Origin: Streptomyces fagopyri
Lineage (GTDB): Bacteria; Actinomycetota; Actinomycetes; Streptomycetales; Streptomycetaceae
DNA length: 64,000 bases
Reading direction: 5' to 3'
Assembly (NCBI RefSeq): GCF_009498275.1
Contig: NZ_CP045643.1
Span: 620,001 to 684,000, forward strand
The notes beneath the pieces are model-generated. The model had not been told where the DNA came from, did no database searches, and worked only from the letters and a program-made list of their open reading frames with translations. The first letter of the stretch is position 1. Each line of letters opens with the position of its first letter. The position numbers and the translations under genes were made by a program. Below, piece after piece: positions 39,636 through 64,000 of the stretch.

Positions 39636-40736
39636 TCAGCGTCGGGCGGACTCGGCGGCGGCCGGTCCGGCGCGGAACGGCGTACGCCCCAGGAGTTGTG
39701 CCGTACGACAGGCGAGCAGCGCGGAGAAAGGGTGGTAGAGCAAGGGTGAGAACTCCTCTCGGGAGCACACCGCCACGGGCAGCACGGCACTCGCGTGCCG
39801 GACCACCTCCACGTCGTCCCGGTGCGTCACGGCGATGACCCGCCTGCCGAGTTCCCGGGCCTTGGCCGCGATCTCCACCGCTCGCCAGTGGGAGCGGCCC
39901 GGTGGCGCGATGACGAACACGGGCATGTCGTGGGGCGTGGCGAACCGCTCCACGTGGTGCCACTCCTCCAGGTCCTGACCGCGGGCGAAGACACCGGCGC
40001 CCTCGATGAGTTTGGCGGCACAGAACGAGGCGGTGCCGAACCCCGGCCCACTGCCGGCCATCACCACCACGGGTGCGTCGCCGACCACGGCCGCGACATC
40101 CCGGCACCGGTCGCCCAGCAGCTCGACGGTGGCGGCGAGGCCCTCGTGCAACGAGGCCAGCTCCCGGTCCAAGTCCCGCGTCTCATCCGCGGAGTGCCGG
40201 CCCCGGGCCTCTCCGAGCCGTACCGCCAGCAGCAACAGACCCAGCAGACTGGCCTGATACGTACGGATCCCGGGGGATCTCTCGGGCCGAGACAGGCCGA
40301 GCGGGAGCGTGTGGTCGGCGGCCTGCGTCAACGGGCTGCCGGGCACGCCGGTCAGCGCGAGGGTCAGCGCGCCGTGCTGCCGTGCCCGGGTGACCGACTG
40401 GACGACCCGGGGTGTGGAACCCGAGGACGAGATGCCGACGACCAGGGGTCTGCCGGGACCGGCCAGACGCAGCCACGGAGCCTCGTACTCCAGAAATCCG
40501 AGCGCGGCCGTCGCTACGCAACTGGTCCCCGCGAGCGAGCGGAACGCCAGTTCCGTCGCCTGGGCGGCGTAGTAGGAGTCGCCGTCACCGACGAGGTGGA
40601 CCGATCCCACCGACGCCCAGTCCGCCGAGGCGAACAAGGCGTCCCTCCGGCGGCTCACCGGGCCGACGAGTTCCCTCAGATCGTCGGCGAGGCTGCCGAC
40701 CTGGCGCAGCATCACCTCGGGTTCAAGCGCCTCCAC
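39636..40736 (-). CDS. Double-SIS-domain sugar isomerase-like protein
   Basis: 366 residues, related to the isomerase half of glucosamine-6-phosphate synthase (GlmS) without the glutaminase part. First SIS domain has 'VGDGDSYYAAQATELAFRSL' and the phosphosugar loop 'GISSSGSTPRVVQSV'. The second has 'MAGSGPGFGTASFCAAKLIEGAGVFARGQDLEEWHHVERF', the region that carries catalytic Glu/His in GlmS and FrlB-like deglycases. It likely isomerises, aminates or deglycates a phosphosugar. GTG start at 40736 with GAGGGGGG. Last gene of a leftward operon (44075-39636). Confidence 0.9.
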   Translation of the reverse strand: MEALEPEVMLRQVGSLADDLRELVGPVSRRRDALFASADWASVGSVHLVGDGDSYYAAQATELAFRSLAGTSCVATAALGFLEYEAPWLRLAGPGRPLVVGISSSGSTPRVVQSVTRARQHGALTLALTGVPGSPLTQAADHTLPLGLSRPERSPGIRTYQASLLGLLLLAVRLGEARGRHSADETRDLDRELASLHEGLAATVELLGDRCRDVAAVVGDAPVVVMAGSGPGFGTASFCAAKLIEGAGVFARGQDLEEWHHVERFATPHDMPVFVIAPPGRSHWRAVEIAAKARELGRRVIAVTHRDDVEVVRHASAVLPVAVCSREEFSPLLYHPFSALLACRTAQLLGRTPFRAGPAAAESARR

Positions 40737-40786
40737 GGGTGTGTCCCCCTCTGCTGTCCTGCGACGTGGGCACGGTCATGGTGTGG

Positions 40787-41596
40787 TCACCGCTCCAAGC
40801 CTCGGACGATCTCCACGTACGCCTTCACCCGGTCGATGTCGATGAGGCCTCCCCAGCCGTCCCGTTCCAGACAGGTGCCCACGAAGGCTCCGTCCGCGAC
40901 GGCCAGCAGTCGCGCCGCGTTCTCGTGGGTGGTGTTGCCGGCGAGCAGTACGGGCACGGCCGGCGCGGACGCGCGGGCCGAGGCGACCATGTCGAACATC
41001 CGCTGCTCCTCGGCGTGGGAGACGCAGACCGCGGTGGCGCCCGCCTGCTGCGCGTCCTTGACCACGCGGCCGGTGGGCCTGCCGCCGCCCAGCCAGCTGA
41101 AGTGCATCGAGTCCGCGTCCGCGACGATCGCCACGTCCTGCGCGTTGATCTTCCGGCGGTACTCCATGACGTCCAGCGGGTCGGCCTGCACCAGGCCCTG
41201 CGCGGTGAGTGTGGCCCCCACCAGCGACCCGGCACGGACGAAGTCGGCTCCGGTCACCTTGGCCACCGCCAGGGACGCCCGTACGGCATTGCGCATCAGT
41301 TGGACGCCGACCCGGAAGCCGTTCCCGTGGGTGGACTCGACGACCGCCCGCACGATGAGAGCCATGGCGGCGGTGCGGGCCGGGTCGGACTCGTCCTTGA
41401 CGCTGTAGACCCGGTCCACCGTCTGGATCAGGCAGCCGTCCGCGCCTCCGTCCCGCAGGGCGGTCGCGGAGCGGACGGCGTCATCGAGGATCTCCCGGAG
41501 GCTGCCCTCGGAATGGAACGGGGTCCCGGGCAGAGGCTTGAGATGGACCATCCCCAGAATGGTCTTGTGGCCGTCGACGTGGAAAAGCTCGGTCAT
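40787..41596 (-). CDS. BtpA/SgcQ-family TIM-barrel protein
   Basis: 269 residues. The BtpA pattern is clear: 'ILGMVHLKPLPGTP' N-terminus, 'DGGADGCLIQ' strand, 'GVQLMRNAVRASLAVAKVTGADFVRA', 'VAIVADADSMHFSWLGGG', and 'VPVLLAGNTTHENAARLLAVADGAFVGTCLE' phosphate-binding end. The family forms TIM barrels found near photosystem, sugar-PTS (SgcQ) and some antibiotic genes; no member has a firmly known reaction to my knowledge. ATG at 41596. Between the aminotransferase and SIS genes in the operon, suggesting phosphosugar chemistry. Confidence 0.9.
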   Translation of the reverse strand: MTELFHVDGHKTILGMVHLKPLPGTPFHSEGSLREILDDAVRSATALRDGGADGCLIQTVDRVYSVKDESDPARTAAMALIVRAVVESTHGNGFRVGVQLMRNAVRASLAVAKVTGADFVRAGSLVGATLTAQGLVQADPLDVMEYRRKINAQDVAIVADADSMHFSWLGGGRPTGRVVKDAQQAGATAVCVSHAEEQRMFDMVASARASAPAVPVLLAGNTTHENAARLLAVADGAFVGTCLERDGWGGLIDIDRVKAYVEIVRGLER

Positions 41597-41613
41597 GTCT
41601 GCTTCCCTCCCGG

Positions 41614-43182
41614 TCATCCCACGGGCACCGCGAGATAGGAGCCGATGCGGGTGATCGCGTCGGACAGCTGGTCCCAGGGGCGCGCGGTGGTGACCCGGAC
41701 CGCTCCCCCGGACAGGCCGAAGGTCAGGATGGTGGGGAACACGGAGACACCCGTCTCGCGCAGGATGTCGCGGAAGCACAGGTAGGAGTCCGTCCAACCG
41801 GCGAACTCCACCGTGGTGTTGATGGAGCAGCGCGGCACGATCACCGCTCCCGAGGCATCGCTGAGGCGAGTGGTGGTCGCCTCACGCAGGGTGGTCAGGG
41901 ACTCCTGTCTGAGGAGCCGCTCGCTCCGGTATGTCTGATAGGCGCTCTGCAATCGGTCCAGGTCTATCTCGTACGCCTTCTCGAACTCGGCGGCCTGGCC
42001 GGCTCCCGGGGTACCCACCCCTTCGAGCAGCCAGCGTTCCATCCGGGCCACGACCTCCACCAGGGTGTAGAAGAAGGACGGCGGGCCGCCGAAGGCCGTC
42101 GAGGCGTACTCGTAGTACTCGGAGACGAAGTCCTGGTCCGCGAGGAACCAGCCGATCTTCAGGCCGGGCGCCGACCATGCCTTGGACAGGCTCGACACGC
42201 GGATGACGTTCGGGGCGGCGCGTGCGGCCGATCGTGACTCGGACGGGCCGAGCCACTCATGACACTCGTCCAGCACGATCATCGTCGTGGGTGCGGCGGC
42301 GCGGATCAGTTCGGTCAGTTCCCGCTCGGACACGACGGCACCGGTGGGATTGGCCGCGGTCTGGAGCATGACCATGGGGGTGTTCGGGGTGAGTGCCGCG
42401 ATGAGCGGACCCAGTGACATCTGGCCGTCCTCGCAGGGGAGCGGTACGAGCCGTACCTCTCGCCGCCGTGCGATGGACTCCACCAGCGGTGGATAGTTCG
42501 GGGTGCCGCAGAGCACGGGCTCCCCGAGATCCGGGGCGTTGTGCAGGATGAAGTCGGCCAGAGAGCTGATGGCGAAGGTTCCGCCCATGGTCATCGCCAC
42601 GTTGTCGGCGGTGTACCCGGCCCCGGTGATGCGGGCGGTCTCGTACGCCGCGATGGCCTCGCGGGCCGGGACCCGCCCTCGTGAGTCCGAGTACCCGTAC
42701 CAGTCCCGGTCCAGGGCGAATTGGACGGCGTGTTTCAACGCGGACGGCAGGCCCCATCGCTCTTCGTCGACCGATCCGCTGGACAGGATGAGATGGCTGT
42801 CCGAGTGGAGGTCCCCGTACAGGTCGTCACGGAAGTACCAGTTGAACATCTCCTTGACGAATCGCACCGTGGCGCGGGACGAGAGGACCTCGGCCGGGTC
42901 GGCCACACGGTGCTGCCGCGCGGTCCGCCACTTCTGTGCGAGCCAGGGCCGGTGCGAGTGCTGCCCCAGCTCGTGCTCGATCCGCCCCAGCCACAGATCC
43001 CGCAGCTCGAAGGGATCACGGGGGTCGCGGGCCCGCGAGAACACTTCGAGGGCCCGTTCGTCGACACCGGGATCGAAGGTGCGGCGAACGCCGTCGGCCG
43101 AGTGCGAGAGGGCGGCGGCGTGGCGGGCCTCCTCGGGGACGACGCTGAGCCGGGGTCTGGGGACAGCGGCGAAAAGCTGCAT
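41614..43182 (-). CDS. PLP-dependent class I/II aminotransferase with N-terminal extension
   Basis: 522 residues, about 120 longer than typical fold-type I aminotransferases; the extra part precedes 'YGYSDSRGRVPAREAIAAYE'. PLP motifs: Asn278 in 'AANPTGAVV', Asp305 in 'IVLDECHEW', Lys334 in 'SSLSKAWSAPGLKIGW'. Aromatic stacking region 'CGTPNYPPLVES'. It could transaminate a keto acid made by the cluster, or a keto sugar, given the SIS and BtpA genes downstream. ATG at 43182 with AAGGAGAAG. Confidence 0.9.
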   Translation of the reverse strand: MQLFAAVPRPRLSVVPEEARHAAALSHSADGVRRTFDPGVDERALEVFSRARDPRDPFELRDLWLGRIEHELGQHSHRPWLAQKWRTARQHRVADPAEVLSSRATVRFVKEMFNWYFRDDLYGDLHSDSHLILSSGSVDEERWGLPSALKHAVQFALDRDWYGYSDSRGRVPAREAIAAYETARITGAGYTADNVAMTMGGTFAISSLADFILHNAPDLGEPVLCGTPNYPPLVESIARRREVRLVPLPCEDGQMSLGPLIAALTPNTPMVMLQTAANPTGAVVSERELTELIRAAAPTTMIVLDECHEWLGPSESRSAARAAPNVIRVSSLSKAWSAPGLKIGWFLADQDFVSEYYEYASTAFGGPPSFFYTLVEVVARMERWLLEGVGTPGAGQAAEFEKAYEIDLDRLQSAYQTYRSERLLRQESLTTLREATTTRLSDASGAVIVPRCSINTTVEFAGWTDSYLCFRDILRETGVSVFPTILTFGLSGGAVRVTTARPWDQLSDAITRIGSYLAVPVG

Positions 43183-43205
43183 GCCTTCTCCTTGGGACAC
43201 GGGCG

Positions 43206-44075
43206 CTACTTGATCCGGAGGCGCTTGAGGTGGCGGCGCCGGGCGGGGACGGAGAATGTGCCGGCTCTCCTGCCGTGGAAGTAGAAGGTGTTGTCGATGA
43301 CCAGGAGCAGACCGCGCTCCCATCGCACACCGGAGTGGCCGCCCGGCGCGTACATGGCCGTCAGCAGGGCACGCAGCGCGCTGTCGACCGTGTCGGGCGC
43401 GGTGCCGGTCCCGCTGTCGGTGCCGCCGTACGTCCACTCCAGTGACTCCTCGAGGAAGTCCCGGAAGGAGAAGACCTGCCGTCCGTCGATGTTCCTGAGG
43501 ATCGGGGGCCCCTGGGGATTGCGCCGGTACCTCGTCCGGGACAGCGTTTCCAGGTCAGGGGGTGTGAGCCGGCTCCCGATCGCGTCCATCGGGGCCAGCA
43601 CGGTCTGGGCCGCGACCCTGTCGTCCCCCGGATCGCAGCACATCAGCACGATGTAGCGGGGCTGCTCCGCCACCGGCCGGCCACTGCCCTCGGTGTGCAG
43701 GGACAGGGGGTTGGCGGCGAACGGCTGCAGGGACACGTTCTCGGTCCGGGACCGTTCGCCGACGAGGTTGAGCACGACGTCCAGCGAGACGTTGGGGAGC
43801 ACGGCGGGGTCGGTTTCCGGCAGTGGGGTGCCCAGCGCCTCTCCGAAGGCGCGGAAGCCCTCGTCCGAGAGGGGCCGATCGAGCAGCAGCCCGGCCAGCC
43901 CGGCCTCGCCCAGCCGCCCGAGGAAGTCGTCGAGCGCCCGGCCGGAGAAGTCCTCCGCGCGCACCTCCGGGACGGGCACCAAGGGCGGTGCGAGCTCGGA
44001 GCCACCTTCCAGAAGATTCGCCCTGGAAGCGATATGCGCGTCTGTGGGCCGGCTCACAAAAATTCCTTGCATCAT
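43206..44075 (-). CDS. Clavaminate-synthase-like Fe(II)/2-oxoglutarate oxygenase (TauD fold)
   Basis: 289 residues. The iron triad is of the His-x-Glu type: H127 and E129 in 'LSLHTEGSGRP', distal H267 in 'VIDNTFYFHGRRAG', with Arg in 'RRAGTFSVPARRRHLKRLR' for 2-oxoglutarate. The HxE variant is characteristic of clavaminate synthase, AsnO and VioC, which hydroxylate or desaturate amino acids. Start chosen at ATG 44075 (GGAG 8 nt upstream). First gene of the leftward operon, divergent from the cupin gene. Confidence 0.88.
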   Translation of the reverse strand: MMQGIFVSRPTDAHIASRANLLEGGSELAPPLVPVPEVRAEDFSGRALDDFLGRLGEAGLAGLLLDRPLSDEGFRAFGEALGTPLPETDPAVLPNVSLDVVLNLVGERSRTENVSLQPFAANPLSLHTEGSGRPVAEQPRYIVLMCCDPGDDRVAAQTVLAPMDAIGSRLTPPDLETLSRTRYRRNPQGPPILRNIDGRQVFSFRDFLEESLEWTYGGTDSGTGTAPDTVDSALRALLTAMYAPGGHSGVRWERGLLLVIDNTFYFHGRRAGTFSVPARRRHLKRLRIK

Positions 44076-44450
44076 CTGCTGCGCTCCGAATTCCTCGACC
44101 GGTGAACGGCGCTCCGGCACAGGGCGGTGGATCGGGCAACCTGGCCCGTGAGGCTCGTAAAACGCCGTCGCCGTATTCAAGGTATGCGGCGCGGTCGCCC
44201 AGACAATCCCCCTGTCTCATTCTCCGGTAACCGTCGGGTAATGAGTGGTCAGATGCTATGGGCGGCCAACGACCTGACAGTGGAAGGAGGAATTCTCCGG
44301 CCCTTGCACCGGTACCACGCAATCGCCCTATCGTGGCAGCAGCGAGAAGGGCAAATCTTGCCTTCCCGAGGAGCAGGGCTGTGGACGGCCCCGCTTTCCA
44401 TTTGCCGAGGAACCTGTATCAGAAGTTCCGGCGTGCTGGAAAGGGCTGAC
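44076..44450. promoter_or_regulatory. Divergent promoter region of the cluster
   Basis: 375 bp between the divergent oxygenase and cupin operons, less GC-rich than its surroundings. A possible rightward promoter is TTGCAC (44304-44309) and TATCGT (44329-44334), with a rather long 19-bp spacer. Likely target for the SARP; I could not recognise a clean SARP repeat here. Confidence 0.4.
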
Positions 44451-45131
44451 GTGAGCGATACAGTAGAGAAAACCCTAGCGACAACGCTGCTACAGCGACT
44501 GGAGGAGGCCCTCCAGGACCCGGATCCGGTATGCCGGCAGCGCAAGGCCGACCGGATCAGCGCGGTCCTCGACAGCCAGCGGACCCAGAGCCCGGACACC
44601 GGCACCACGCCGCTGCTGATCTGCGACTGGGCCGACGACCTGGGATCCGAGGGAGCGACCCAGCGCCTCGGCATCGAGTCGGTGCCGGGCCCGACGAAGG
44701 TGGCCAAGACCAGTGCCGCCACCGGGCGTTCGCTGCTGTCCAACGGACACCTGGGAGCGGACATCCTCCATGTACCCGCCGGTGAGGGGTTCGCCCCGCA
44801 CACCCACCCCGGGGACCACCTGCTGTTCGTCCTGGCGGGCGAGGGCACCATCTCGGTGAACGGTCAGATCGTGCCGACCGGTCCGGGGCGGGCGTACATG
44901 GTCGACGGTTCGGTCGTCCACGCGGTGGGGGCGATCACCGACCACACGATCCTCTCGATCGGTACACCTCACCGGGCTCTGGACAGCGAGGACCGGCAGT
45001 CGCTGACCGCCTACGCCGCCCTGCTCAACCCGTTCGGTTCCATCCACTGCCTGATCTGTGACCTCTCGGCCGACGGCGGCGAGGAGTTGGAGTCTCTGGG
45101 CTGCACACACTCCCCGCACCGGTTCGGCTGA
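44451..45131 (+). CDS. Cupin-domain protein with C-terminal Cys/His cluster
   Basis: 226 residues. Single cupin barrel: motif 1 'APHTHPGDHLLFVLAGEG' with H117, H119 and D122/H123, motif 2 around H157 in 'GSVVHAVG'. The C-terminus holds C200-x2-C203 ('HCLICD') and C218-x-H220-x2-H223 ('GCTHSPH'), a probable zinc site. Cupins of this type can be iron dioxygenases. GTG at 44451 with GGAAAGG. First gene of the rightward operon and only 3 bp before the AMP ligase, so the two are coupled. Confidence 0.85.
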   Translation: MSDTVEKTLATTLLQRLEEALQDPDPVCRQRKADRISAVLDSQRTQSPDTGTTPLLICDWADDLGSEGATQRLGIESVPGPTKVAKTSAATGRSLLSNGHLGADILHVPAGEGFAPHTHPGDHLLFVLAGEGTISVNGQIVPTGPGRAYMVDGSVVHAVGAITDHTILSIGTPHRALDSEDRQSLTAYAALLNPFGSIHCLICDLSADGGEELESLGCTHSPHRFG

Positions 45132-45134
45132 CCG

Positions 45135-46772
45135 ATGACTGCGGTGATTGCGCCCGAAGGCGTTCGGCAGGAGGACTTCGAGCGCGTCCACACCTACGGC
45201 GGCGTCGCCTTCGGCCCCTCCCTGAGCACCGGGGCCACCATGCCCGGCCGGCTCGCCGCGCGTGCCCGTGCCCGGGGCGACGATCCCTTTCTCACCACCT
45301 TCTCCGAGAAGGGGGAGGAACACACGCTCTCCTACCGCGAGTTCGACCTGCTCAGCCGTCAGGTGGGCGCGTGGATCGCGCGGACGGTGGGTGTCGGCGC
45401 CGGCGACGTCGCCGCGCTGCTGCCCGCCAACGACGCCCTCTCGATCGCGGCCCTCTTCGCCCTTCAGCGCTCCGGCTGCGCGGTGCTGTTGCTCAACCCC
45501 GGTGACCCGCCGGACCGCCTGCGGCAGCAGACCGGCCGGCTCACGGCCAAGGCGGTCCTCAGGTCCCCTTCCGTCGCGGACACGGTCCTCACGGAGGCTG
45601 TCGAACTGCCGACGGCTCCCCACTCGCGCACGGACGCGGCAGCGGCGCACCCGACCTCCGCTCCCCTCGACCCGTGGTCGGACGCGCTGTTCTTCGGGAC
45701 CTCGGGTTCGACGGCCGCCGCCAAGCTCGTCGCCCAGTCGCACTACAACGCGGCTGCGAACGCGGACGCCCTGGTCCGCCACCACGCCCTGCGGCCCGGT
45801 GACCGCCTGCTGGGCTGCCTGCCGGTCCACCATGTCAACGGACTGCACTTCACCGTCTTCGGAACGCTGACGGCCGGGGCGCATCTGGTCCTGGCCCGCG
45901 AGTTCGATCCGTTCGGCTATCCGGAGCTCGTCGAACGGTTCCGGCCCCGTATGGCGAGCGTGGTCCCGAGCATCCTCGAAACGATGCTCGCCGTCCGGCA
46001 GCCGACCCTGCCGTCCACCTTCGACTACTTCGTCACGGCTGCCGCGCCGTTGACCGCGGCGACCGCGCGGGCGATGGCGCGCCAGGTGGGAGCCCGCGTC
46101 CTGCAGGGCTACGGCCTCACCGAGACGACCAACTTCTCCACGACCATGCCGGCGGACCTTCCTGAGGACACCTACCGCCGCATGATGCTGGACACCGACA
46201 TCCCGTCGATCGGCACCCCCTTCCCCGGCAACGACGTGGCCGTGCTGACCGACCGCGGTGATCGTGCCGCGCCCGGGGAGACGGGTGAGATCTGCATGCG
46301 CGGGACCAATGTCATGACGCGGTACGCCGGCAACCCGGAGGCGACGGCGCGGGCGTTCGCCGGCGGCTGGTTCCACTCCGGCGACACCGGCTTTCACCAC
46401 GTGGACGCGGAGACCGGCCGGACCTTCCTCGTCATCACCGGCAGACGGAAGAACATCGCGAAGGTACGCGGAGAATCGGTGTCCCTCGACGAGATGGACC
46501 GCGTCCTGCGGTCGGTCCCCCTGGTGGTGGACGCCGCCGCGGTCGCCGTGCCCCACCGGTTCCTCGGCGAGGAGATCGTGGCCGCGGTGGTACTGGCGCC
46601 CGGCACGTCGGACGTCGACCTCCGCCCGGCCCTGTCCGCCGTCTTCTCGCCCGCGGTGCACCCCAGCCGGGTGGCGAGACTCGAAGCGATCCCACGGACA
46701 CGGACCGGCAAGGTCCTGCGACCCGAACTCACCCGGCAGCTGATGGGCTCCGGACCCGACACACAGCCCTGA
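45135..46772 (+). CDS. AMP-dependent acyl/aryl ligase (ANL superfamily)
   Basis: 545 residues. Core motifs: 'FFGTSGSTAAAKLVAQS' (P-loop-like, ~187-203; the usual Gly-x-Pro-Lys is Ala-Ala-Ala-Lys), 'GYGLTETTNFS', 'FHSGDTGFHHVD', 'GRRKNIAKVRGESVSLDEMDRVL' hinge, and catalytic Lys526 in 'RTRTGKVLRPEL'. It activates a carboxylic acid as acyl-AMP and loads it on CoA or a carrier protein. The free carrier at 49792 is the obvious acceptor. Substrate cannot be read reliably. Confidence 0.92.
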   Translation: MTAVIAPEGVRQEDFERVHTYGGVAFGPSLSTGATMPGRLAARARARGDDPFLTTFSEKGEEHTLSYREFDLLSRQVGAWIARTVGVGAGDVAALLPANDALSIAALFALQRSGCAVLLLNPGDPPDRLRQQTGRLTAKAVLRSPSVADTVLTEAVELPTAPHSRTDAAAAHPTSAPLDPWSDALFFGTSGSTAAAKLVAQSHYNAAANADALVRHHALRPGDRLLGCLPVHHVNGLHFTVFGTLTAGAHLVLAREFDPFGYPELVERFRPRMASVVPSILETMLAVRQPTLPSTFDYFVTAAAPLTAATARAMARQVGARVLQGYGLTETTNFSTTMPADLPEDTYRRMMLDTDIPSIGTPFPGNDVAVLTDRGDRAAPGETGEICMRGTNVMTRYAGNPEATARAFAGGWFHSGDTGFHHVDAETGRTFLVITGRRKNIAKVRGESVSLDEMDRVLRSVPLVVDAAAVAVPHRFLGEEIVAAVVLAPGTSDVDLRPALSAVFSPAVHPSRVARLEAIPRTRTGKVLRPELTRQLMGSGPDTQP

Positions 46773-46866
46773 CGGCCATCGAGCAGCTCCCGCCGTCATG
46801 AGAAGCAGACGCGACAGCGGGGCCGGTGTACGACGACACACACCGCGCTCCAGGACAGGAGTCCCC

Positions 46867-48237: not shown

Positions 48238-48785
48238 CCGGGAGCACGGCCGTGGACTGGACCTGGGAAACGGCCGAGGACCCGGACGAGGTGCACGCCC
48301 TGCTCCGCGCCTGCGACGCGTACCAGGCGCGGCGGTACGGGTCGCCGGCCCCCGTACGGAACACCGGCACGACCGAACGCCGGGTCCGCTCGGGCGAGGT
48401 CCACCTGCTGCGTCACGACGGTGAGGTCGCCGGGATGTTCACCCTGTCCTGGGACCCGCCGTTCACCCTGGCCGCGGACGCCTTTCCACCGGCGGTCAGG
48501 CCGGCCTACCTCGGTCGTCTCGCCGTCGCGCCGCGGTTGCTGGCCGACAGCGCGCCGACCGGGGCGACCTGTGTGCGCCGCGCCGCGGAACTGGCCTCGG
48601 CCCGAGGCGCCGACGCCCTACGGTCCGAGGCAAATCCGGATCTGGCCGGCACCGTGAAGCTGCTGGAACTGCTCGGCTTCCGCCGGCACGGCGACGTCCT
48701 GACGGACGCTGCGGGACGTCGCACCGTGCGCCTCCAGAAGAGCTTCGGACCTGGCCCGGCCGCCAGGTCGGAGGAGAGCCGATGA
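48234..48785 (+). CDS. GNAT-family N-acyltransferase
   Basis: 183 residues. GNAT fold: 'EDPDEVHALLRACD' first helix, 'GEVHLLRHDGEVAGMFTLSWDPPF' strands, 'AYLGRLAVAPRLL' (beta4, pantetheine binding), a shortened P-loop region, and 'DALRSEANPDLAGTVKLLELLGFRRHGDV' C-terminal part. It would transfer an acyl group from CoA or from a carrier protein to an amine. It overlaps both neighbours by 4 bp, with the aldose epimerase behind and the aldehyde dehydrogenase ahead. Confidence 0.85.
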   Translation: MTGSTAVDWTWETAEDPDEVHALLRACDAYQARRYGSPAPVRNTGTTERRVRSGEVHLLRHDGEVAGMFTLSWDPPFTLAADAFPPAVRPAYLGRLAVAPRLLADSAPTGATCVRRAAELASARGADALRSEANPDLAGTVKLLELLGFRRHGDVLTDAAGRRTVRLQKSFGPGPAARSEESR

Positions 48786-49780: not shown

Positions 49781-49791
49781 GGAGGCCAGAC

Positions 49792-51049: not shown

Positions 51050-51095
51050 GCCTGAGATGGATTCTGGCCATTCGCCGGGTGAGGCGCGCAGCGTA

Positions 51096-51526: not shown

Positions 51527-51542
51527 GAACTGGGGGGAGAAG

Positions 51543-53968: not shown

Positions 53969-54056
53969 AGGTCCACCGCGAGGCAGAGCACACGACCCGG
54001 CCGTCTCTCCGGTTCGCACCCCGGATCATCGGCCACTGAATTTTAGGAGTTCCCCC

Positions 54057-56305: not shown

Positions 56306-57642
56306 CCACCGCGGTGCGGGAGGGCCCGGGCCCCGGTGCCGCCGAGCCGGCGGCCTTGCGGATCGACACGCTGCACGGTTCCCTCGACGACCCCTCGCTG
56401 GACTCCATGAACCTGCTCAACGAGGTGGCGCAGCGGTTCCCGGACGCGGTCTCCTTCGCGGCCGGCCGGCCCTACGAGGGTTTCTTCGAGGTCGAGGAGG
56501 TCCATCGTCATCTGCGCGCCTTCTGCGACCACTTGAGCCTGGACCGTGGTTGGCCCGAGGAGGAGGTCCGCCGGCTGCTCTTCCAGTACGGCCGTACCAA
56601 GGGCGTGATCAACGACCTGGTGGCCAGGAATCTCACGGTCGACGAGGGCATCGAGGCCGACCCGGAGGCCATCGTGGTCACCGTCGGCTGCCAGGAAGCG
56701 ATGTTCCTGGTGCTGCGCGCGCTGCGGACGGACGACCGCGACGCGGTGCTCGCCGTGTCGCCCACCTATGTCGGTCTCAACGGCGCCGCCCAGCTGGCCG
56801 ATCTGCCGGTGCTGCCGGTGCGCGCCGGGGAGTACGGCGTGGACCTCGACGACCTCGCCCGTACGGTACGGCGGGCGAGAGCCGAGGGACTGCGGCCGCG
56901 GGCCCTGTACGTGATCCCCGACTTCTCCAATCCGCTGGGGATCAGCCTGGACCTGGACACCCGGCGCCGGTTGCTCGACCTGGCCTCGCGGCTCGATCTG
57001 CTCCTGCTGGAGGACAATCCGTACGGCCTGTTTCCCGCGGGCACCGCGCGGTTGCCCACCCTGAAGGCTCTCGACACGGGCCGGCGTGTCGTCTATCTCG
57101 GGTCGTTCGCCAAGACGGCACTGCCTGGTGCCCGGGTCGGGTACGTCGTCGCCGACCAGGTGGTCACCGACGGGACCGGCCGGCGGCTGGGCCTGCTGGC
57201 CGACCAACTGGCCAAGGTCAAAAGCATGCTGACGGTGAACACCTCACCGCTGGCCCAGGCGGTCGTCGCGGGCAAACTGCTGGAGAACGACCACAGTCTG
57301 GTCCGCGCCAACGCGCGGCAGGCGGATCTGTACCGTGGCAACCTGCGGATGATGTCGGACGGTCTCGCCCGACGATTCCCCGCCGGCTCCGGAGTCACCT
57401 GGAACACACCCGGCGGCGGGTTCTTCCTCGTCCTGACGGTGCCGTTCCGCACCGACGACACGCTGCTGGAGCATTCGGCGCGGCAGCACCGGGTGATCTG
57501 GACTCCCATGCACCATTTCTATGCCGGACGCCGGCACACCCACCAGATACGTCTGTCGTACAGCCTCCTTCAGCCCGAGCAGATCAGCGCGGGCCTGGAC
57601 GGGCTCGCGGCTCTCGTCGATGAACAGCGGTCCGGGCTCTGA
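56302..57642 (+). CDS. hpgT: 4-hydroxyphenylglycine aminotransferase-like PLP enzyme
   Basis: 446 residues, fold-type I aminotransferase of the HpgT/MocR-related group: 'SFAAGRPYEGFF', 'QYGRTKGVINDLVARNL', 'VIPDFSNPLGISL', 'LLEDNPYGLF', and PLP Lys271 in 'GSFAKTALPGARVGY'. HpgT transaminates 4-hydroxyphenylglyoxylate to (S)-4-hydroxyphenylglycine, usually with tyrosine as donor, which regenerates hydroxyphenylpyruvate. ATG 56302 in a 4-bp overlap. The three Hpg genes form one coupled unit. Confidence 0.88.
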   Translation: MTTAVREGPGPGAAEPAALRIDTLHGSLDDPSLDSMNLLNEVAQRFPDAVSFAAGRPYEGFFEVEEVHRHLRAFCDHLSLDRGWPEEEVRRLLFQYGRTKGVINDLVARNLTVDEGIEADPEAIVVTVGCQEAMFLVLRALRTDDRDAVLAVSPTYVGLNGAAQLADLPVLPVRAGEYGVDLDDLARTVRRARAEGLRPRALYVIPDFSNPLGISLDLDTRRRLLDLASRLDLLLLEDNPYGLFPAGTARLPTLKALDTGRRVVYLGSFAKTALPGARVGYVVADQVVTDGTGRRLGLLADQLAKVKSMLTVNTSPLAQAVVAGKLLENDHSLVRANARQADLYRGNLRMMSDGLARRFPAGSGVTWNTPGGGFFLVLTVPFRTDDTLLEHSARQHRVIWTPMHHFYAGRRHTHQIRLSYSLLQPEQISAGLDGLAALVDEQRSGL

Positions 57643-57799: not shown

Positions 57800-58972
57800 A
57801 TGCGCCGGATACGCATTTTTGACGCCACGCTTCGTGACGGGGAACAAGCCCCCGGAAACGCGATGTCCCCCCAGCAGAAGCTGGCGCTCGCTCTGAAACT
57901 TGAGGAACTCGGAGTCGACACGGTCGAGACCGGCTATCCCGGCTCCTCCGCGGCTGATTTCGAAGCCACCCGGTTGATCGCGAAATCCCTCACCACAGCC
58001 GGATTCGCCACGTTCAACCGCTGCTCGCGTGAGGACATCCGCCTGTCGATGGAGGCGGCCGGGGGCAACCCGCGGCACCAGGTGCAGGTCTGCTGCACCG
58101 GCAGCGACATCCATCTGCGCCACAAGCGTGGCATCACCAGGGCGCAGGCCCTCAGTGAGGTCGACGACTCCGTCCGGTACGCCCGGTCCCTGGGTGCCGT
58201 CGACATCAACCTCGCGGTCGAGGACGCCAGTCGCGGGGAGCACGAGTGGATCCGCGCCCTGGTCGGCACCGCGGTGGAGGCCGGGGCCACGGCCGTGACC
58301 CTCGCCGACACCACCGGTTTCGCGATTCCCCAGGAGTTCGGCGAGCTCATCGCCGCGGTGCGTGCCTGCGTACCCCGTGACATCGTGCTCGCGACCCACT
58401 GCCACGACGATCTCGGCCTCTCCCTGGCCAACGCTCTGGCCGGTCTCGCGGCCGGGGCCGACGAGGTCCAGGCGACACTCGCCGGCATCGGCGAGCGCTC
58501 CGGGAACACCTCGCTGGAGGAACTGGCGGCGGTGCTGTCGTACAAGGGCACCGAACTCGGCATGGACACCGGCGTTCGCACCGAACTCCTCGACGAGGCG
58601 TTCGAACTCCTCTCCGGCGCCATCTCGCTGGAGCGCCCGCGCAACAAGGCGATCTTCGGAACGAACTCTTTCGCCACACAAGCGGGAATTCACCAGGCGG
58701 CCATGCTGCAGAACCCCGTCACGTACGAATTCATCAGGCCCGAGAGCTTCGGGCGTCAACGCGCCCTGCTCGTCGGACGGCATTCCGGGCGGTCGATCCT
58801 TCGGCACCTCCTGGGGCAGCTCGGGATACCCGCCGACGACGGCCTGGTGAGCGAGCTGTACGAGGAGTACATCGCGAACCGGCCGAACGGCGACTGCGAC
58901 GAACTGGACGTGCTCCGCGACCGGTTGGCCGACAGGCTCGGCGTGCCGCGGACCGCCGGAGCCACGGCGTGA
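57800..58972 (+). CDS. 2-isopropylmalate synthase-like (acyl-CoA:2-keto acid) condensing enzyme
   Basis: 390 residues: the TIM-barrel DRE-TIM metallolyase domain with D8, R12 and Q16 in '[13 protein letters not shown]', metal ligands H200 and H202 in 'ATHCHDDLG', and N236 in '[12 protein letters not shown]'. The LeuA regulatory (dimer) domain, ~130 residues long in leucine enzymes, is missing, as in homocitrate and benzylmalate synthases. It should condense acetyl-CoA with a 2-keto acid; aromatic keto acids such as (4-hydroxy)phenylpyruvate are candidates. First of four coupled genes that complete a one-carbon extension cycle. Confidence 0.9.
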
Positions 58973-60372
58973 GCACGGCTGCGACGACGCTCATCGACAA
59001 GCTCTGGCGGAACGCGGTCGTGTGCACGGAGCCGGACGGTCCCGATCTCCTCTACGTCGACCTGCACCTGGTCCACGAGGCGACGTCACCGCAGGCGTTC
59101 GACGGGCTGCGGCTGGCCGGCCGCGGGGTGCGAAGGCCGGATCTGACGCTGGCGGTCGAGGATCACAACGTGCCGACCGACTCGCTCACCGTCTCCGACG
59201 CGCTCAGCCGGGAGCAGTTGCAGGCGCTGCGCCGCAACTGCGCCGAGCACGGCGTCGGTCTGTTCCCGCACGGTCACCGCCGACAGGGCGTGGTCCATGT
59301 CGTCGGCCCCGAACTCGGCCTCGTCCAGCCGGGCATGACCGTGGTGTGCGGAGACAGTCACACGTCCACCCACGGCGCCTTCGGTGCGCTCGCCTTCGGT
59401 GTGGGGACAAGCGATGTCGAGCACGTGCTCGCGACCCAGACCGTGGCGATCCAGCAGCCGAGGACGATGTCGGTGGAGTTCACCGGCACCCCCGCCCACG
59501 GCGTCACCGCCAAGGACTTGATGCTCGCCCTGATCACGGAGATCGGCGCCAACGGCGCGCACGGCCACATCGTGGAGTACCGCGGCGAGGCGGTGCGCTC
59601 GCTCTCCATGGAGGGCCGTATGACGATGTGCAACCTCAGTGTGGAAGCCGGTGCCAGAGCCGGGCTGATAGCGCCTGACGAGACGACCTTCGCCTACCTC
59701 GCGGACCGGCCCGGCAGTCCGTCGGGACCGGCCTGGGAGGATGCGCTCGCCCATTGGCGCACCTTGACGACGGACGCCTCCGCCCTCTTCGACCGTACCG
59801 TCACCGTCGACGTGTCGGGGCTGACCCCCTGGGTGACCTGGGGAACCAATCCCGGCCAGGCGGTGCCGCTCGGCGGGGCCGTCCCCGATCCCGAGACCCT
59901 CGCCGACCCGCAGGAACGGGCTTCGGCGCGACGGGCGCTCGCCTACATGGACCTCGTTCCGGGCACACCGATGCGGGAGATCGGTATCGACACCGTCTTC
60001 ATCGGCTCGTGCACCAACGGCCGCCTGGAGGACCTCAGAGCCGCCGCGGACGTGCTCCGCGGCCGTCGGGTCGCCGACGGCGTACGCGTGCTGGTGGTCC
60101 CCGGCTCCATGGATGTCCGCACCCGGGCGGAAGAAGAGGGCCTCAACGAGGTCTTCACCCGGGCGGGAGCCGAGTGGCGTCTGCCGGGCTGCTCCATGTG
60201 CCTGGGCATGAACTCCGACCGGCTCCCCGGCAGACAGCGCTGCGCGTCGACCAGCAATCGCAATTACGAGGGACGGCAGGGACCGCAGGCCCGGACGCAT
60301 CTGGTGTCTCCCGCCATCGCCGCGGCGACCGCGGTGGCCGGCAGGCTCGCCCTCCCCGCAGACCTGCCTTGA
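58969..60372 (+). CDS. 3-isopropylmalate dehydratase-like large subunit (LeuC family)
   Basis: 467 residues, same length as LeuC. The 4Fe-4S cluster cysteines C348 ('IGSCTNGR'), C408 and C411 ('[11 protein letters not shown]') are all present, with '[32 protein letters not shown]' in the substrate region. Isomerises the alkylmalate by dehydration and rehydration together with the small subunit. GTG 58969 overlaps the synthase stop codon. Confidence 0.93.
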
Positions 60373-60382
60373 GGAGACCTCC

Positions 60383-61003
60383 GTGGAACCGCTGAGCACC
60401 CACACCGGGAAGTGTCTGCCGCTGCCCCGCAGCAACGTGGACACCGATCAGATCATCCCCGCCGAACACTGCAGGAGTCTGTACCGCACCGGGTACGCCG
60501 GCGCGCTGTTCGCCAGATGGCGCTCGGACCCCGGCTTCGTCCTGGAACAGCCCGAACGGTCCGGCGCCACGGTCCTGTTGGCGGGCCCGCACTTCGCCAC
60601 CGGCAGTTCGCGTGAGCATGCCGTCTGGGCGCTGCGGGACTGGGGCTTCGCCGCTGTCATAGCGCCCAGCTTCGGTGACATCTTCGGCCGCAACGCGCTC
60701 AAGAACGGTCTGCTGGCGGTCACGTTGCCGGAACCGGATGTCGCTTGGCTGCTCCAACACGCCGAGGAGGACGCCGAGTTCGAGGCGACGGTCGATCTGC
60801 TGCACTGCCGGGTCTCGGCCGGCGGACGGAGCTGGGACTTCGACATCGACGGGCGCGCACGGCGGATGCTGCTCGCGGGACACGACGACATCACCGCCAC
60901 CCTGACGAGGGAGGCCGACATCGCCGCCCACGAGAAATCACGCCGGCCCTGGTTGCCCGTGCTGACGCCCGGCATGGCACCGGTTCCCGCGGAATCCGGC
61001 TGA
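60383..61003 (+). CDS. 3-isopropylmalate dehydratase-like small subunit (LeuD family)
   Basis: 206 residues. 'RSNVDTDQIIPAEHC' near residue 15, 'FATGSSREHAVWALRDWGFAAVIAPSFGDIFGRNALKNGLLAV' swivelling domain. Partner of the preceding large subunit. The segment just after DTDQIIPA differs from leucine-pathway LeuD and decides substrate shape in this family. GTG 60383 with GAGGAG. Confidence 0.92.
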   Translation: MEPLSTHTGKCLPLPRSNVDTDQIIPAEHCRSLYRTGYAGALFARWRSDPGFVLEQPERSGATVLLAGPHFATGSSREHAVWALRDWGFAAVIAPSFGDIFGRNALKNGLLAVTLPEPDVAWLLQHAEEDAEFEATVDLLHCRVSAGGRSWDFDIDGRARRMLLAGHDDITATLTREADIAAHEKSRRPWLPVLTPGMAPVPAESG

Positions 61004-61012
61004 GGACCGAAC

Positions 61013-62038
61013 ATGTCAGTCATCACTGTCATTCCAGGCGACGGTATCGGGCCCGAGGTGATCGAGCAGGCCATGCTGACGCTGGACCGGCTCCAGCTCG
61101 GCCTCGAATTCGACGTCCTCGACCACGTCAACGCCGACACGTTCCTCCGTACCGGAGTCGCTCTCTGCGACGAGGACTTCGAGCGGGTGAGGTCCAGCCG
61201 CTCGGTGTTGCTCGGGGCGATCGGTGACCCTCGGGTCGGCTCGCCGGCCTACGGGCGCGGTGTCCTGCTCCGTCTGCGCTTCGAGTTGGACCTGTACGTC
61301 AACCACCGCCCGGCGAAGCTGCTCCACGACCGGCTGAGCCCGCTCAGGGCGGACAGCGCGCGGGCGGTGGACTGCATCGTCATCAGGGAGAACACCGAGG
61401 GCCTCTACACGGGCGCGGGCGGTTCGGTGCACCCCGGTTCGGAGCACGAGATCGCACTGGACGTCGATCTCAGCACCTACCACGGTACGGCCCGCATCGT
61501 GGAGTACGCGTTCTCCATCGCCCGCCGTGAGGTGTGCATGGTGGACAAGGCGAACGCGGTGGAATTCGGCGGGGGTCTGTGGCAGCGGTGCTGGCGGGCA
61601 GCCGCGGCGCGCCACCCCGACAAGGCCTCCCGGCACCTCTACGTCGACGCCGCCGCCATGCAGATGGTCACCGATCCCACCGGATTCGATGTGATCGTGA
61701 CCAACAACTCCTACGGTGACATCCTCAGCGACATCGCGTCCGCGGTCGCCGGCGGGATCGGCACGGCCGCGTCGGCCAATCTCAACCCGGAACGCGGGTT
61801 CGGCCTCTACGAGCCGGTCCACGGCAGCGCGCCGGACATCGCCGGCAAGGACATCGCCAATCCGGTCGGGGCCATCCTCAGCGCCGGGCTGCTCATCGGC
61901 GACCTGGGCCACCACGAGGCGGCCGCCGCGCTGCGAGCCGCGATCTCGCAGGCGGTGGCAGCCGGGGAGACCACCCCGGATCTCGGCGGCTCGCTGGACA
62001 CCCGTGGTGCCGGTGAGGCGATTCGAGCCCGGTTGTGA
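61013..62038 (+). CDS. 3-isopropylmalate dehydrogenase-like NAD-dependent decarboxylating dehydrogenase (LeuB family)
   Basis: 341 residues. 'VIPGDGIGPEVIEQ' at the N-terminus, 'CIVIRENTEGLYTG', substrate-site 'DKANAVEFGGGLWQR', metal site 'VTNNSYGDILSDIAS', and NAD-binding 'FGLYEPVHGSAPDIAGKDIANP'. It oxidises and decarboxylates the isomerised alkylmalate to the one-carbon-longer 2-keto acid. 'TNNSYGDILSD' replaces the usual 'TxNLFGDILSD', consistent with another substrate. ATG 61013. Confidence 0.93.
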   Translation: MSVITVIPGDGIGPEVIEQAMLTLDRLQLGLEFDVLDHVNADTFLRTGVALCDEDFERVRSSRSVLLGAIGDPRVGSPAYGRGVLLRLRFELDLYVNHRPAKLLHDRLSPLRADSARAVDCIVIRENTEGLYTGAGGSVHPGSEHEIALDVDLSTYHGTARIVEYAFSIARREVCMVDKANAVEFGGGLWQRCWRAAAARHPDKASRHLYVDAAAMQMVTDPTGFDVIVTNNSYGDILSDIASAVAGGIGTAASANLNPERGFGLYEPVHGSAPDIAGKDIANPVGAILSAGLLIGDLGHHEAAAALRAAISQAVAAGETTPDLGGSLDTRGAGEAIRARL

Positions 62039-62100
62039 ACCCATCGGCCGCGGCGCGCGGCGACAGACATCCACCAGGACACTCAACGACAGGAGTGACA

Positions 62101-63156
62101 ATGTCCAGCAGGACCGAGTCGGTCGAGGTGCTCGACGCGTCGGTGCAGGAGCAGTGGAAGGCGGTGGCCGCGACCGGCGCCGCCGAACTCGCTTCGTCCT
62201 ATGTGCTGTCCAGCGCGGTGCTGGGACTGGCACGGGCCGGGGTCACGGCCCGGCTGTCCGGCGAGTGGACGCCCCTCGCGGACCTCGTCCCGCCGGGCGG
62301 CTACACCGAGCTGGCGCGGAACGTGCTGCGCTTCGTGCAGGTGCGCGGCCTGGTCGAGTCGCAGGGTGACTCCTGGCGGCTGACTCCGCGTGGCGCCTCC
62401 CTGCTCGGGGAGGTACCCGAGGCGGTGATCGGCTATTACGCCGAAGCCTACGGGCCGGTGCTCAGCAGCATCGAGGGACTCCTCACCGGACGCCTCCGGT
62501 ACGGATCCGACGTGGCGCGTGACACCGAGGCACTCGGCCGCCGTTGCGAGGTGTTGTTCCGGAGCGTCGGCATGAACGTGGTCCGCGAACTGGTCGGGAA
62601 GTACCAGGCCAAGCGGGTGCTGGACCTCGGCTGCGGAACGGGGGGCCTGGTGCTCGATCTGTGCCGGGAGGACCCCGGCCTGCGGGCGGTGGGCCTGGAC
62701 ATCGCCGAGGACGCCGTGGCGCTGGGCTCGAAACGGGCGGCGGAGGAGGGGCTCGACGACCGGGCGTCCTTCGTCGTCGGTGACGCGTTCGCGCCCGACG
62801 ACTGGCCCGAGGCCGCCCGGGAATGCGACCTCTTCATCGCTGTCGGTGCCGTGCACGAGCACTTCCGGGACGGGGAGGCGGCGGTCGTCGAACTGCTGCG
62901 CGCCTACTCGGATCTGCTCGCGAGCAAGCCGGGCAGCGTACTGGTTCTCGCCGAGCCCGAACTGTTCACGGACTCCGTGGACGCGGACTTCTTCCTGGTC
63001 CACGCGCTCACCGAACAAGGTTTCCCGCAGCCCCGGGAGCCGTGGCTGAAGGTCATCGAGGCGGCCGGACTCACCTGCCGGCGGGTCCTTTCGGTGCCCA
63101 ACACCATGTTCCGTTTCGCGTACTACGAGATCACGGCCGGAGCGCCGGTCCGGTGA
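62101..63156 (+). CDS. SAM-dependent methyltransferase with N-terminal dimerisation domain
   Basis: 351 residues. N-terminal winged-helix-like dimerisation part (about 1-120, 'VLRFVQVRGLVESQGDSWRLTPRGASLL'), SAM motif I 'VLDLGCGTGGLVLDLCREDPGLRAVGLDIAEDA' at ~178-210, 'FIAVGAVHEHFRDG' and 'SVLVLAEPELF'. This build is usual for small-molecule O-, N- or C-methyltransferases in biosynthetic clusters; a phenol, an amine, or a keto acid beta-carbon could be the target. ATG 62101 with AGGAG; coupled to the next gene by GTGA. Confidence 0.9.
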   Translation: MSSRTESVEVLDASVQEQWKAVAATGAAELASSYVLSSAVLGLARAGVTARLSGEWTPLADLVPPGGYTELARNVLRFVQVRGLVESQGDSWRLTPRGASLLGEVPEAVIGYYAEAYGPVLSSIEGLLTGRLRYGSDVARDTEALGRRCEVLFRSVGMNVVRELVGKYQAKRVLDLGCGTGGLVLDLCREDPGLRAVGLDIAEDAVALGSKRAAEEGLDDRASFVVGDAFAPDDWPEAARECDLFIAVGAVHEHFRDGEAAVVELLRAYSDLLASKPGSVLVLAEPELFTDSVDADFFLVHALTEQGFPQPREPWLKVIEAAGLTCRRVLSVPNTMFRFAYYEITAGAPVR

Positions 63157-64000
63157 AGCCGTCGCTGCGGGCGCAGGCGGTCGCCCCCATGGAGCTGGCC
63201 AAGCTGCAGCGGCTGGGCCGGTCCGGCTCGCTGGACATCGCGCTGGGCATCCCTCCGGGCGACCCGCCCGCGGCCGTCGTGGAGGCCGCGGTGTCAGCCC
63301 TGCGCAAGGGCCGGCACCAGTACGCCGATACGGCGGGGCTGTCCGAGTTGCGTGCCGTGATCGCGGCGGACGCTCTGCGGACCCATGGGGTCGTGGTGGA
63401 TCCGGACACCGAGATCACGGTGACGGTGGGCGCCACGGAGGCGTTGCTGACCGCGTTGCTGACCGTCACCGATCCCGGTGACGAAGTCCTGCTGTTCGAA
63501 CCGTACTTCGAGCTCTACCCGGGGATCGTCGAGCTCGCCGGCGCGGTACCGCGCTTCGTCCGGCTGGAGGCACCCGACTGGCGCCTGACGGAGGAGGCGC
63601 TGACGCGCGTGCTCTCGCCGCGGACCCGGGCCGTGGTGCTGAACACGCCGCACAACCCCACCGGGCGGGTCTTCGACGCCCAGGAGCTCGACCTCCTGAT
63701 GAACCTCTGCCAGGAGCGGGGCATCGCCTGCGTCACCGACGAGGTCTACGACTGCACGGTCTTCGACGGGCGCCGGCACCTGTCCCCGCTCGCGATGCCG
63801 GGCGCGCGGCCGACCAGCGTGATCGTCGGCAGCCTGTCCAAGAAGGCGCAGATGACGGGGTGGCGTATCGGGTACTGCATCGCCGACCCGGAGATGACAG
63901 AGGTGCTGCGCAGGATTCATGAGCACACCACCGTGGGCACCAACCATCCCCTGCAGTCCGGTGCCTCCGCCCTGAAAGCCTCCGACGTACTGGACGGCCG
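63153..64000 (+). CDS. PLP-dependent class I/II aminotransferase (3' end outside window)
   Basis: About 282 residues are visible and the frame is open at the right edge. 'QYADTAGLSELRAVIA' N-terminal substrate loop, 'NTPHNPTGRVFD', 'ACVTDEVYDCTVFDG', and PLP Lys230 in 'VGSLSKKAQMTGWRIGY'. It resembles aspartate/aromatic aminotransferases and kynurenine aminotransferases. As the gene after the keto-acid extension set and a methyltransferase, it probably converts the extended 2-keto acid to an amino acid. GTG 63153 overlaps the methyltransferase stop. Confidence 0.92.
   Translation, partial: MKPSLRAQAVAPMELAKLQRLGRSGSLDIALGIPPGDPPAAVVEAAVSALRKGRHQYADTAGLSELRAVIAADALRTHGVVVDPDTEITVTVGATEALLTALLTVTDPGDEVLLFEPYFELYPGIVELAGAVPRFVRLEAPDWRLTEEALTRVLSPRTRAVVLNTPHNPTGRVFDAQELDLLMNLCQERGIACVTDEVYDCTVFDGRRHLSPLAMPGARPTSVIVGSLSKKAQMTGWRIGYCIADPEMTEVLRRIHEHTTVGTNHPLQSGASALKASDVLDG

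Follow-up and report, generated by a model that had tools for sequence, protein, structure and literature searches.

The sbz cluster of Streptomyces sp. NCIMB 40513 is described as the source of altemicidin, SB-203207 and SB-203208, and S. antioxidans MUSC 164 carries a paralogue of it (PMC6331615). The core of these compounds originates from beta-nicotinamide adenine dinucleotide (beta-NAD) and S-adenosylmethionine (SAM), with SbzP coupling NAD and SAM (PMC11610977, PMC10491745). SbzM and SbzJ convert cysteine to 2-sulfamoylacetate, which is then attached by SbzL and SbzI; SbzA was demonstrated in vitro to transfer Ile from tRNA, and SbzB, together with SbzC, attaches beta-methylphenylalanine (PMC6331615). 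Mutants at the letters sbzN, sbzO and sbzH still make the sulfonamide acid but not altemicidin (PMC6331615). SB-203207 inhibits several isoleucyl-tRNA synthetases (IleRSs) with a half-maximal inhibitory concentration (IC50) of <2 nM (PMC9113183). Sulfonamides are very rare among natural products, as are alkaloids derived from NAD. Here, we describe a 30-gene cluster of Streptomyces fagopyri whose left part lies in a 64,000-nucleotide stretch (G000:C1:620001-684000, hereafter the window) of an 8.88-Mb single-contig genome. Judged from its sequence, the backbone of this cluster is of the described sbz type, and the cluster very probably is an expanded member of that type, whose product would be an IleRS inhibitor of the SB-203208 class carrying other decorations. 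Two gene blocks, one for 4-hydroxyphenylglycine (Hpg) and one comprising LeuABCD, a methyltransferase and an aminotransferase, are genuine additions relative to sbz. An earlier note on the window had called the cluster unrecognised, a claim superseded by the match to sbz (PMC6331615).

Correspondence with the sbz clusters

The first lead to sbz was a second IleRS gene (IleRS2) in the cluster, besides the genome's separate IleRS gene at 6.75 Mb. The extra IleRS, two AMP ligases, carriers, GNATs, an MppJ-like methyltransferase, a cupin and an aldehyde dehydrogenase all fit the description of sbz. The MUSC 164 locus used for sequence comparison came from an SbzM-cupin search and a scan of a species-genome collection (36 SbzM loci). 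In that locus, every one of the eight D-R operon letters with a readable function is placed as expected (D being a methyltransferase, G and K carriers, I a GNAT, J an aldehyde dehydrogenase, L a ligase, M a cupin and P a pyridoxal phosphate (PLP) enzyme), the K carrier being detected as a tblastn match only.

The full cluster, including its SARP regulator, runs from 37944 to 73397; coordinates beyond 64000, marked extended, carry the window numbering on into the adjoining 16 kb, which were also analyzed. Reading frames were picked by codon-position G+C, with family searches (Pfam and others) as a control. Identities to S. antioxidans are BLAST identities of the MUSC 164 cluster to 31 window-strain proteins, and the letters for the SIS, BtpA, TauD, GalM, LLM, MFS and SbzE positions were inferred from gene order. 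G200 and G179 are two other genomes described below. The genes are as follows.

37944..39416, plus strand: SARP regulator (BTAD, E 4e-42; Trans_reg_C), 68% to its G200 orthologue, SIS-adjacent in both genomes
39636..40736, minus strand: SIS-domain protein, inferred SbzN position (PF01380; 55% to S. antioxidans)
40787..41596, minus strand: BtpA family, inferred SbzO position (PF03437; 64% to S. antioxidans)
41614..43182, minus strand: SbzP-type PLP enzyme of aminotransferase fold, putative NAD + SAM annulase (68% to S. antioxidans; PDB 8k3h, PseP, E 2e-164)
43206..44075, minus strand: TauD-like dioxygenase, inferred SbzQ position (PF02668; 51% to S. antioxidans)
44433..45131, plus strand: SbzM-type cupin, start codon uncertain (61% to S. 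antioxidans; PDB 9ug7, E 4e-41)
45135..46772, plus strand: AMP ligase 1, SbzL type (63% to S. antioxidans; code NGFSVAGNF)
46798..48237, plus strand: aldehyde dehydrogenase, SbzJ type (PF00171; 70% to S. antioxidans)
48234..48785, plus strand: GNAT 1, SbzI type (53% to S. antioxidans; Pfam GNAT/FeeM weak, E 0.01-0.05)
48782..49780, plus strand: GalM-like aldose epimerase, inferred SbzH position (PF01263; 67% to S. antioxidans)
49792..50064, plus strand: free carrier protein 1, SbzG position (PF00550; 40% to S. antioxidans)
50048..51049, plus strand: LLM-class oxidoreductase, inferred SbzF position (PF00296; 69% to S. antioxidans)
51197..51526, plus strand: X109, small protein, first gene of the Hpg block (no significant Pfam family; 78% in G200, 69% in G179)
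51504..53054, plus strand: group II PLP decarboxylase-like protein (PF00282; NPQK at the PLP lysine, loop column Phe)
53036..53968, plus strand: PhyH-type oxygenase (PF05721)
54057..55160, plus strand: HmaS-like protein (4-hydroxymandelate synthase; PDB 2r5v best, 380 bits; HmO next)
55157..56305, plus strand: HmO, 4-hydroxymandelate oxidase (PDB 5zzp best, 387 bits)
56302..57642, plus strand: HpgT-like aminotransferase, placed after HmaS/HmO at four loci (this one, another in the same genome, and those of G200 and G179)
57800..58972, plus strand: LeuA-like acyltransferase, 390 aa (HMGL-like and HCS_D2, no other Pfam domain; 86% in S. parvulus)
58969..60372, plus strand: LeuC (683 bits against a leuC cut-off of 560)
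60383..61003, plus strand: LeuD (159 bits against a leuD cut-off of 116)
61013..62038, plus strand: LeuB-like dehydrogenase (PF00180; under the leuB cut-offs)
62035..63156, plus strand: MppJ-like methyltransferase, SbzD position (PDB MppJ, 45 bits; 30% to the S. antioxidans gene)
63153..64313, plus strand, crossing the window edge at 64000: class I/II aminotransferase AT2 (PF00155)
64727-65938 (extended), minus strand: P450 (PF00067)
65935-67188 (extended), minus strand: MFS transporter (PF07690; 65% to S. antioxidans)
67352-70504 (extended), plus strand: IleRS2, SbzA type (61% to S. antioxidans)
70501-72054 (extended), plus strand: AMP ligase 2, SbzB type (52% to S. antioxidans)
72058-72354 (extended), plus strand: carrier 2 (PF00550)
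72351-73397 (extended), plus strand: GNAT2, SbzC type (54% to S. antioxidans)

Counterparts were present for 17 of the 18 sbz genes, sbzE being the exception. With the S. antioxidans paralogue as intermediary, the cluster shares with sbz the SbzP-type annulase, the SbzM/SbzJ/SbzL/SbzI sulfonamide module, the SbzA-type IleRS and SbzB/SbzC acyl transfer, as well as the MFS, SIS, BtpA, GalM, LLM and TauD genes, and gene order is conserved within blocks. By contrast, it lacks SbzE; AMP ligase 1 and the aldehyde dehydrogenase are not separated by a carrier, carrier 2 standing beside AMP ligase 2; the code of its SbzB-type ligase is altered; and its TauD-PLP-BtpA-SIS block is divergent from the cupin, whereas the block is co-directional with the cupin in S. 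antioxidans. It also adds 12 genes: X109, the decarboxylase-like gene, PhyH, HmaS, HmO, HpgT, LeuA, LeuC, LeuD, LeuB, AT2 and P450.

The SARP gene is followed by four minus-strand genes (SIS, BtpA, PLP enzyme and TauD; 39636-44075), which point away from 19 plus-strand genes in a row (44433-64313) with intergenic spacings of -23 to +157 bp; many neighboring cluster genes overlap by 4 bp, and all 30 reading frames are open. The earlier note, whose interval begins at 39636, had described a SARP gene followed by about 24 genes. Its count was right, as 23 genes follow the SARP gene up to AT2, the last of them crossing that edge, but the SARP gene itself lies to the left (37944-39416), and 39636-40736 is the minus-strand SIS-domain gene. 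The interval given in the note holds about 70% of the whole cluster. Extending the sequence to the right of 64000, a check that the note had proposed, added six cluster genes (P450, MFS, IleRS-like, AMP ligase, carrier and GNAT) up to 73397, so that the right end is GNAT2, 9.4 kb past the window edge. The HmaS/HmO/HpgT genes, LeuABCD-like set, AMP ligase, free carrier, GNAT and oxygenases that the note had listed are all present according to structure, Pfam and NCBIfam matches, and its reading as a single cluster for an amide or amino-acid-derived product, with no nonribosomal peptide synthetase (NRPS) or polyketide synthase, is supported. The sugar-derived part that it had suggested is probably wrong: the sbz core comes from beta-NAD and SAM, and SIS, BtpA and GalM occupy the inferred sbzN, sbzO and sbzH positions.

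The added blocks and their distribution

Operons of HmaS, HmO and HpgT supply hydroxyphenylglycine in NRPS clusters. The block in the window resembles them in having HmaS-, HmO- and HpgT-like genes in order, but differs in being joined to X109, the decarboxylase-like gene and PhyH, and in lying in a cluster without NRPS. Among solved structures, the HmaS-like protein scored best with 2r5v (named PCZA361.1, which we take to be HmaS; 380 bits), followed by 7yvv (310) and 3zgj (292), both named HPPD, and the HPPD 1t47 (206). Against the HmaS call, the NCBIfam 4HPPD model matches the protein above its cut-off (354 versus 277). Because HPPD-named chains score in between and the 4HPPD model passes, the assignment leans also on the adjacent HmO and HpgT; HPPD was rejected for 54057-55160 on scores and neighbor genes, despite the NCBIfam name. 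The protein is 38% identical to its own-genome homologue at 5.72 Mb. The HpgT-like aminotransferase has distant solved relatives only, and adjoins HmaS/HmO at the four loci examined.

X109 gave nothing significant in Pfam or in a profile search of solved structures; by eye, we would guess a small monooxygenase-type fold. The decarboxylase-like protein has Gln directly before the PLP lysine. Across 123 aligned rows, the residue before that lysine and the residue in the loop column were H/Y in 62, H/F in 25, Q/F in 20, Q/Y in 14 and Q/L in 2. An aldehyde synthase was considered, with the loop column Phe here and Leu in G200, and was rejected, as F and L are also seen in that column in the solved decarboxylases 4e1o and 7xin. 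The sbz assignment is independent of the HmaS call and of the decarboxylase reading. Another decarboxylase-like protein, P0305 (872 aa), carries a cupin domain.

In the keto-acid extension block, LeuC and LeuD exceed curated cut-offs, and LeuA and LeuB are homologous yet below theirs. Our best guess is that LeuABCD, the methyltransferase and AT2 would make a beta-methylated, one-carbon-longer amino acid for activation by AMP ligase 2, with beta-methylleucine and beta-methylhomotyrosine as two possible candidates. Reading the extended keto acid from LeuB residues was attempted and given up.

We compared 36 SbzM loci (flanks of up to 10 kb; a match being at least 35% identity over half the length). 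X109, the decarboxylase-like gene, PhyH, HmaS, HmO, HpgT, LeuA, LeuC, LeuD, the methyltransferase, P450 and AT2 were each matched at 0 of the 36; LeuB was matched at one (L042), and sub-threshold matches to the methyltransferase, P450, AT2 and HpgT occurred at a few. At L042, in Amycolatopsis tucumanensis, matches to LeuB (46%) and LeuA (31%) lie 3-5 kb from the SbzM-like cupin. SbzM-like cupins also occur outside actinomycetes (L024 and L038; Candidatus Roizmanbacteria and Methylocystis).

Among 392 genomes sampled from the genus, 12 have an SbzP-like gene (E 1e-60 or better) and 11 an SbzM-like gene (E 1e-30 or better), with both in five. The Hpg and Leu blocks lie near the SbzP-like gene in two of the 12, the window strain itself and G200, and were not found around it in the other ten, where the stretches covered at least 18 kb on each side in five genomes, 15-23 kb per side in G384 and G357, 8-9 kb on one side up to the contig end in G175 and G191, and, in G002, 5.6 kb on one side, the other stopping 4.6 kb before the contig end. 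In a second draw of 324 genomes, which overlaps the first at least in G001-G020 and G200, the methyltransferase at 62035-63156 was matched at E 1e-70 in the window strain (G000) and G200 only.

G200 is of the S. parvulus type: database proteins named Streptomyces parvulus match its LeuA at 100% identity over 369 residues and its decarboxylase-like protein at 99.8%. Separate BLAST matches were obtained there for 28 of the 30 cluster genes (63-87% identity, aligned over at least 93% of their length) in the same arrangement, and GNAT2 (79%) brings the total to 29. The G200 cluster thus resembles that of the window in all but the SbzM cupin, which it lacks, and it carries both added blocks inside the cluster at the same place. 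Because G200 repeats 29 of the 30 genes in this arrangement, the comparison shows, at the level of gene content, that both added blocks accompany the sbz core. The novelty that the earlier note had claimed for the combination holds for the literature searched and for the other relatives examined, but G200 shares the pairing of Hpg with keto-acid extension. No description of an altemicidin-type variant with hydroxyphenylglycine was found in the literature, with subscription papers and MIBiG outside the scope.

In G179 (G179:C1:1158000-1217999; L064, L066 and L067), the genes from X109 to HpgT keep their order and lie next to NRPS genes, and the sbz core and the Leu block were not found in these 60 kb. 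Because of this, the Hpg block is, as gene content goes, a separable module. The earlier note had named differing conservation of the blocks across strains as evidence for separate pathways; such a difference exists in part, as the Hpg block stands without the sbz core or the Leu block in G179. In G200 both blocks occur together with the core. An Hpg pocket was not seen in the G179 NRPS codes, for which three of four adenylation domains were read by rough alignment and the fourth was unread; for AMP ligase 2, this rough reading gave one letter differing from the dedicated code readings. Two apparent carbamoyltransferases, judged by eye, lie near the G179 Hpg block. A second HmaS-HmO-HpgT set of the window strain (L078; G000:C1:8268737-8272285) is 49, 58 and 61% identical to that of the window; matches to X109, the decarboxylase-like gene and PhyH were not found in the 40-kb stretch examined, and 3-9 kb to the right of the set there are AMP-ligase-like matches.

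Two or three unrelated pathways lying side by side, that is, an ordinary sbz cluster interrupted by independent Hpg and keto-acid operons for other products, would accommodate the Hpg block beside NRPS genes in G179, the second HmaS-HmO-HpgT set at 8.27 Mb, and the fact that the two blocks start at the two widest intergenic gaps among the 19 plus-strand genes (147 and 157 bp). However, both blocks stand mid-sbz in identical order in two species whose proteins are 13-37% different, and no NRPS or other acceptor pathway was found inside the cluster. We regard such a juxtaposition as quite unlikely.

Amino-acid activation and the proposed product

The nine-residue substrate code of AMP ligase 1, NGFSVAGNF, is that of the S. 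antioxidans SbzL-position protein, and is found in G200 and in five of seven related ligases of other clusters, with L017 one position off and L045 two. AMP ligase 2 has the code DGWLFGMIV, the same in G200, near the DGWLLGFIA shared by three SbzB-position proteins, those of S. antioxidans, G384 and CB02959; two further SbzB-position proteins diverge more (L014, DFWNVGVIA; L022, DIWFIVVIA). The likeness of DGWLFGMIV to DGWLLGFIA suggests that the substrate of AMP ligase 2 is an amino acid related to, yet distinct from, beta-methylphenylalanine. Hpg as its substrate is disfavored: the code resembles those of SbzB-position proteins and is unlike what we take to be Hpg-type codes.

IleRS2 groups with SbzA-type proteins (58-62% identity), apart from the housekeeping IleRS (38-39%), and in IleRS2 and five relatives the first KMSKS lysine is replaced by Ala (AMSK), the housekeeping enzyme having KMSK. 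Second copies of a target commonly confer self-resistance. IleRS2 might thus be a resistant target copy that transfers no Ile, leaving an altemicidin-like product without the Ile group, and SbzA itself was found by second-target-copy logic (PMC6331615). Nevertheless, IleRS2 and the S. antioxidans SbzA-position protein are 61% identical and have lost the same KMSKS lysine, and SbzA is a proven Ile transferase in vitro (PMC6331615); moreover, resistance and Ile transfer are compatible roles. A role in resistance alone appears fairly unlikely.

Our best reading of the product is an aminoacyl sulfonamide of the SB-203208 type that differs in its O-acyl amino acid and carries other decorations, probably an undescribed relative of altemicidin and SB-203208. 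All sbz-type steps were assigned by orthology to enzymes tested in other systems. The SbzP-type enzyme would build the 6-azatetrahydroindane core by joining a C4 unit from SAM to the nicotinamide ring of NAD. Processing of the core would fall to the genes at positions F, H, N, O and Q. By orthology, the SbzM-type cupin would turn cysteine into sulfamoylacetaldehyde and, with the SbzJ-type enzyme, yield 2-sulfamoylacetate, which the SbzL-type ligase, carrier 1 and the SbzI-type GNAT would place on the core amine. The fusion of an SbzM-like cupin to a carrier domain in the Micromonospora protein P0030 (PF07883 + PF00550) is consistent with the sulfonamide acid being loaded on a carrier. IleRS2 would move isoleucine from tRNA to the sulfonamide, possibly with an added role in self-resistance. 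LeuABCD, the methyltransferase and AT2 would probably build the chain-extended, beta-methylated amino acid, to be attached by AMP ligase 2, carrier 2 and GNAT2 where beta-methylphenylalanine sits in SB-203208. The Hpg block (X109, decarboxylase-like, PhyH, HmaS, HmO and HpgT) may supply a further 4-hydroxyphenylglycine-derived unit. The methylation ascribed by elimination to SbzE (the core N-methyl) would be absent. More speculatively, and with low confidence, the product can be drawn as an altemicidin-class alkaloid with a non-canonical, beta-methylated homologated amino acid in place of beta-methylphenylalanine, plus an Hpg-derived unit reshaped by X109, the decarboxylase-like enzyme and PhyH, which either replaces the lost SbzE methyl or is attached in an undescribed step without either AMP ligase.

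Several points weigh against an expanded sbz-type cluster with such a product. The sequence reference was the S. antioxidans paralogue, not the NCIMB 40513 sbz cluster itself, and the methyltransferase at the SbzD position is 30% identical to its counterpart there. No orthologue of SbzE, a 260-aa methyltransferase, was found in the window and the adjoining 16 kb (best E 0.13) or in the whole genome (best E 2e-4). The SbzM cupin was not found anywhere in the G200 genome (best E 0.097), and for that reason a sulfonamide product is doubtful in G200. In G179 the Hpg block occurs apart from any sbz core, which means that the block is not tied to sbz chemistry, and no Hpg-attaching enzyme is identified in the cluster, given the code of AMP ligase 2.

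The SbzE query also gave no match near the SbzP-type genes of G020, G002, G371 and G335; as some other SbzP-type loci thus lack a match, we did not take SbzE as defining for sbz clusters. In G200, 278 bases separate the AMP ligase 1 and TauD frames, leaving no room for the SbzM cupin. Of the seven genomes that have SbzP and lack SbzM, five carry a shorter cupin within or close to the cluster (31-37% over 38-52% of the SbzM query), and none was found in the fetched stretches of the other two, G137 and G200. These short cupins (L080-L090; G020, G100, G002, G371 and G335) are about 140-160 aa long, with unfixed starts, and are without the C-terminal Cys/His stretch of SbzM.

The missing SbzE here and SbzM in G200 could also mean that the cluster is silent or no longer functional. 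Against this, 30 of 30 frames are open in the window strain, 28 G200 counterparts match over at least 93% of their length, and the SbzJ, SbzL and SbzI types are still 72-83% identical in G200 despite the loss of SbzM; a defunct cluster is thus very unlikely. For the expanded sbz-type cluster, these natural gaps allow the contribution of each gene to be compared. Sharing the core but having other amino-acid modules, this larger cluster predicts undescribed members of the class, and highlights two small enzyme sets, LeuABCD-methyltransferase-AT2 and the Hpg block.

Cluster boundaries and flanking genes

The SARP gene at 37944..39416 is the probable left boundary. The boundaries are supported by G200, where only two of 35 genes called outside the SARP-GNAT2 span match proteins of the cluster set (a methyltransferase, 28%; a SARP, 31%). 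To the left of the SARP gene in the window lie a helix-turn-helix (HTH)-cupin regulator (34861-35730) and a methyltransferase (35755-36687), and 48% homologues of this pair (34861-36687) lie just beyond GNAT2 in G200, flanking the clusters at opposite ends in the two genomes. We read this as probable coincidence and left the pair out of the cluster, because the methyltransferase has relatives (E 1e-40 or better) in 118 of the 392 genomes, many of them closer (up to 76%) than that of G200. As a stand-in for SbzE, this methyltransferase is disfavored (E 0.13 to SbzE).

To the right, a DUF1062 gene (74099-74683, extended), which has no match near the G200 cluster, lies between GNAT2 and an IS110-family transposase gene (75869-77236, extended). 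A chance cupin match inside the transposase gene recurs with equal score at 8.52 Mb (G000:C1:8517219-8517623), suggesting a second copy of the IS110-family element there.

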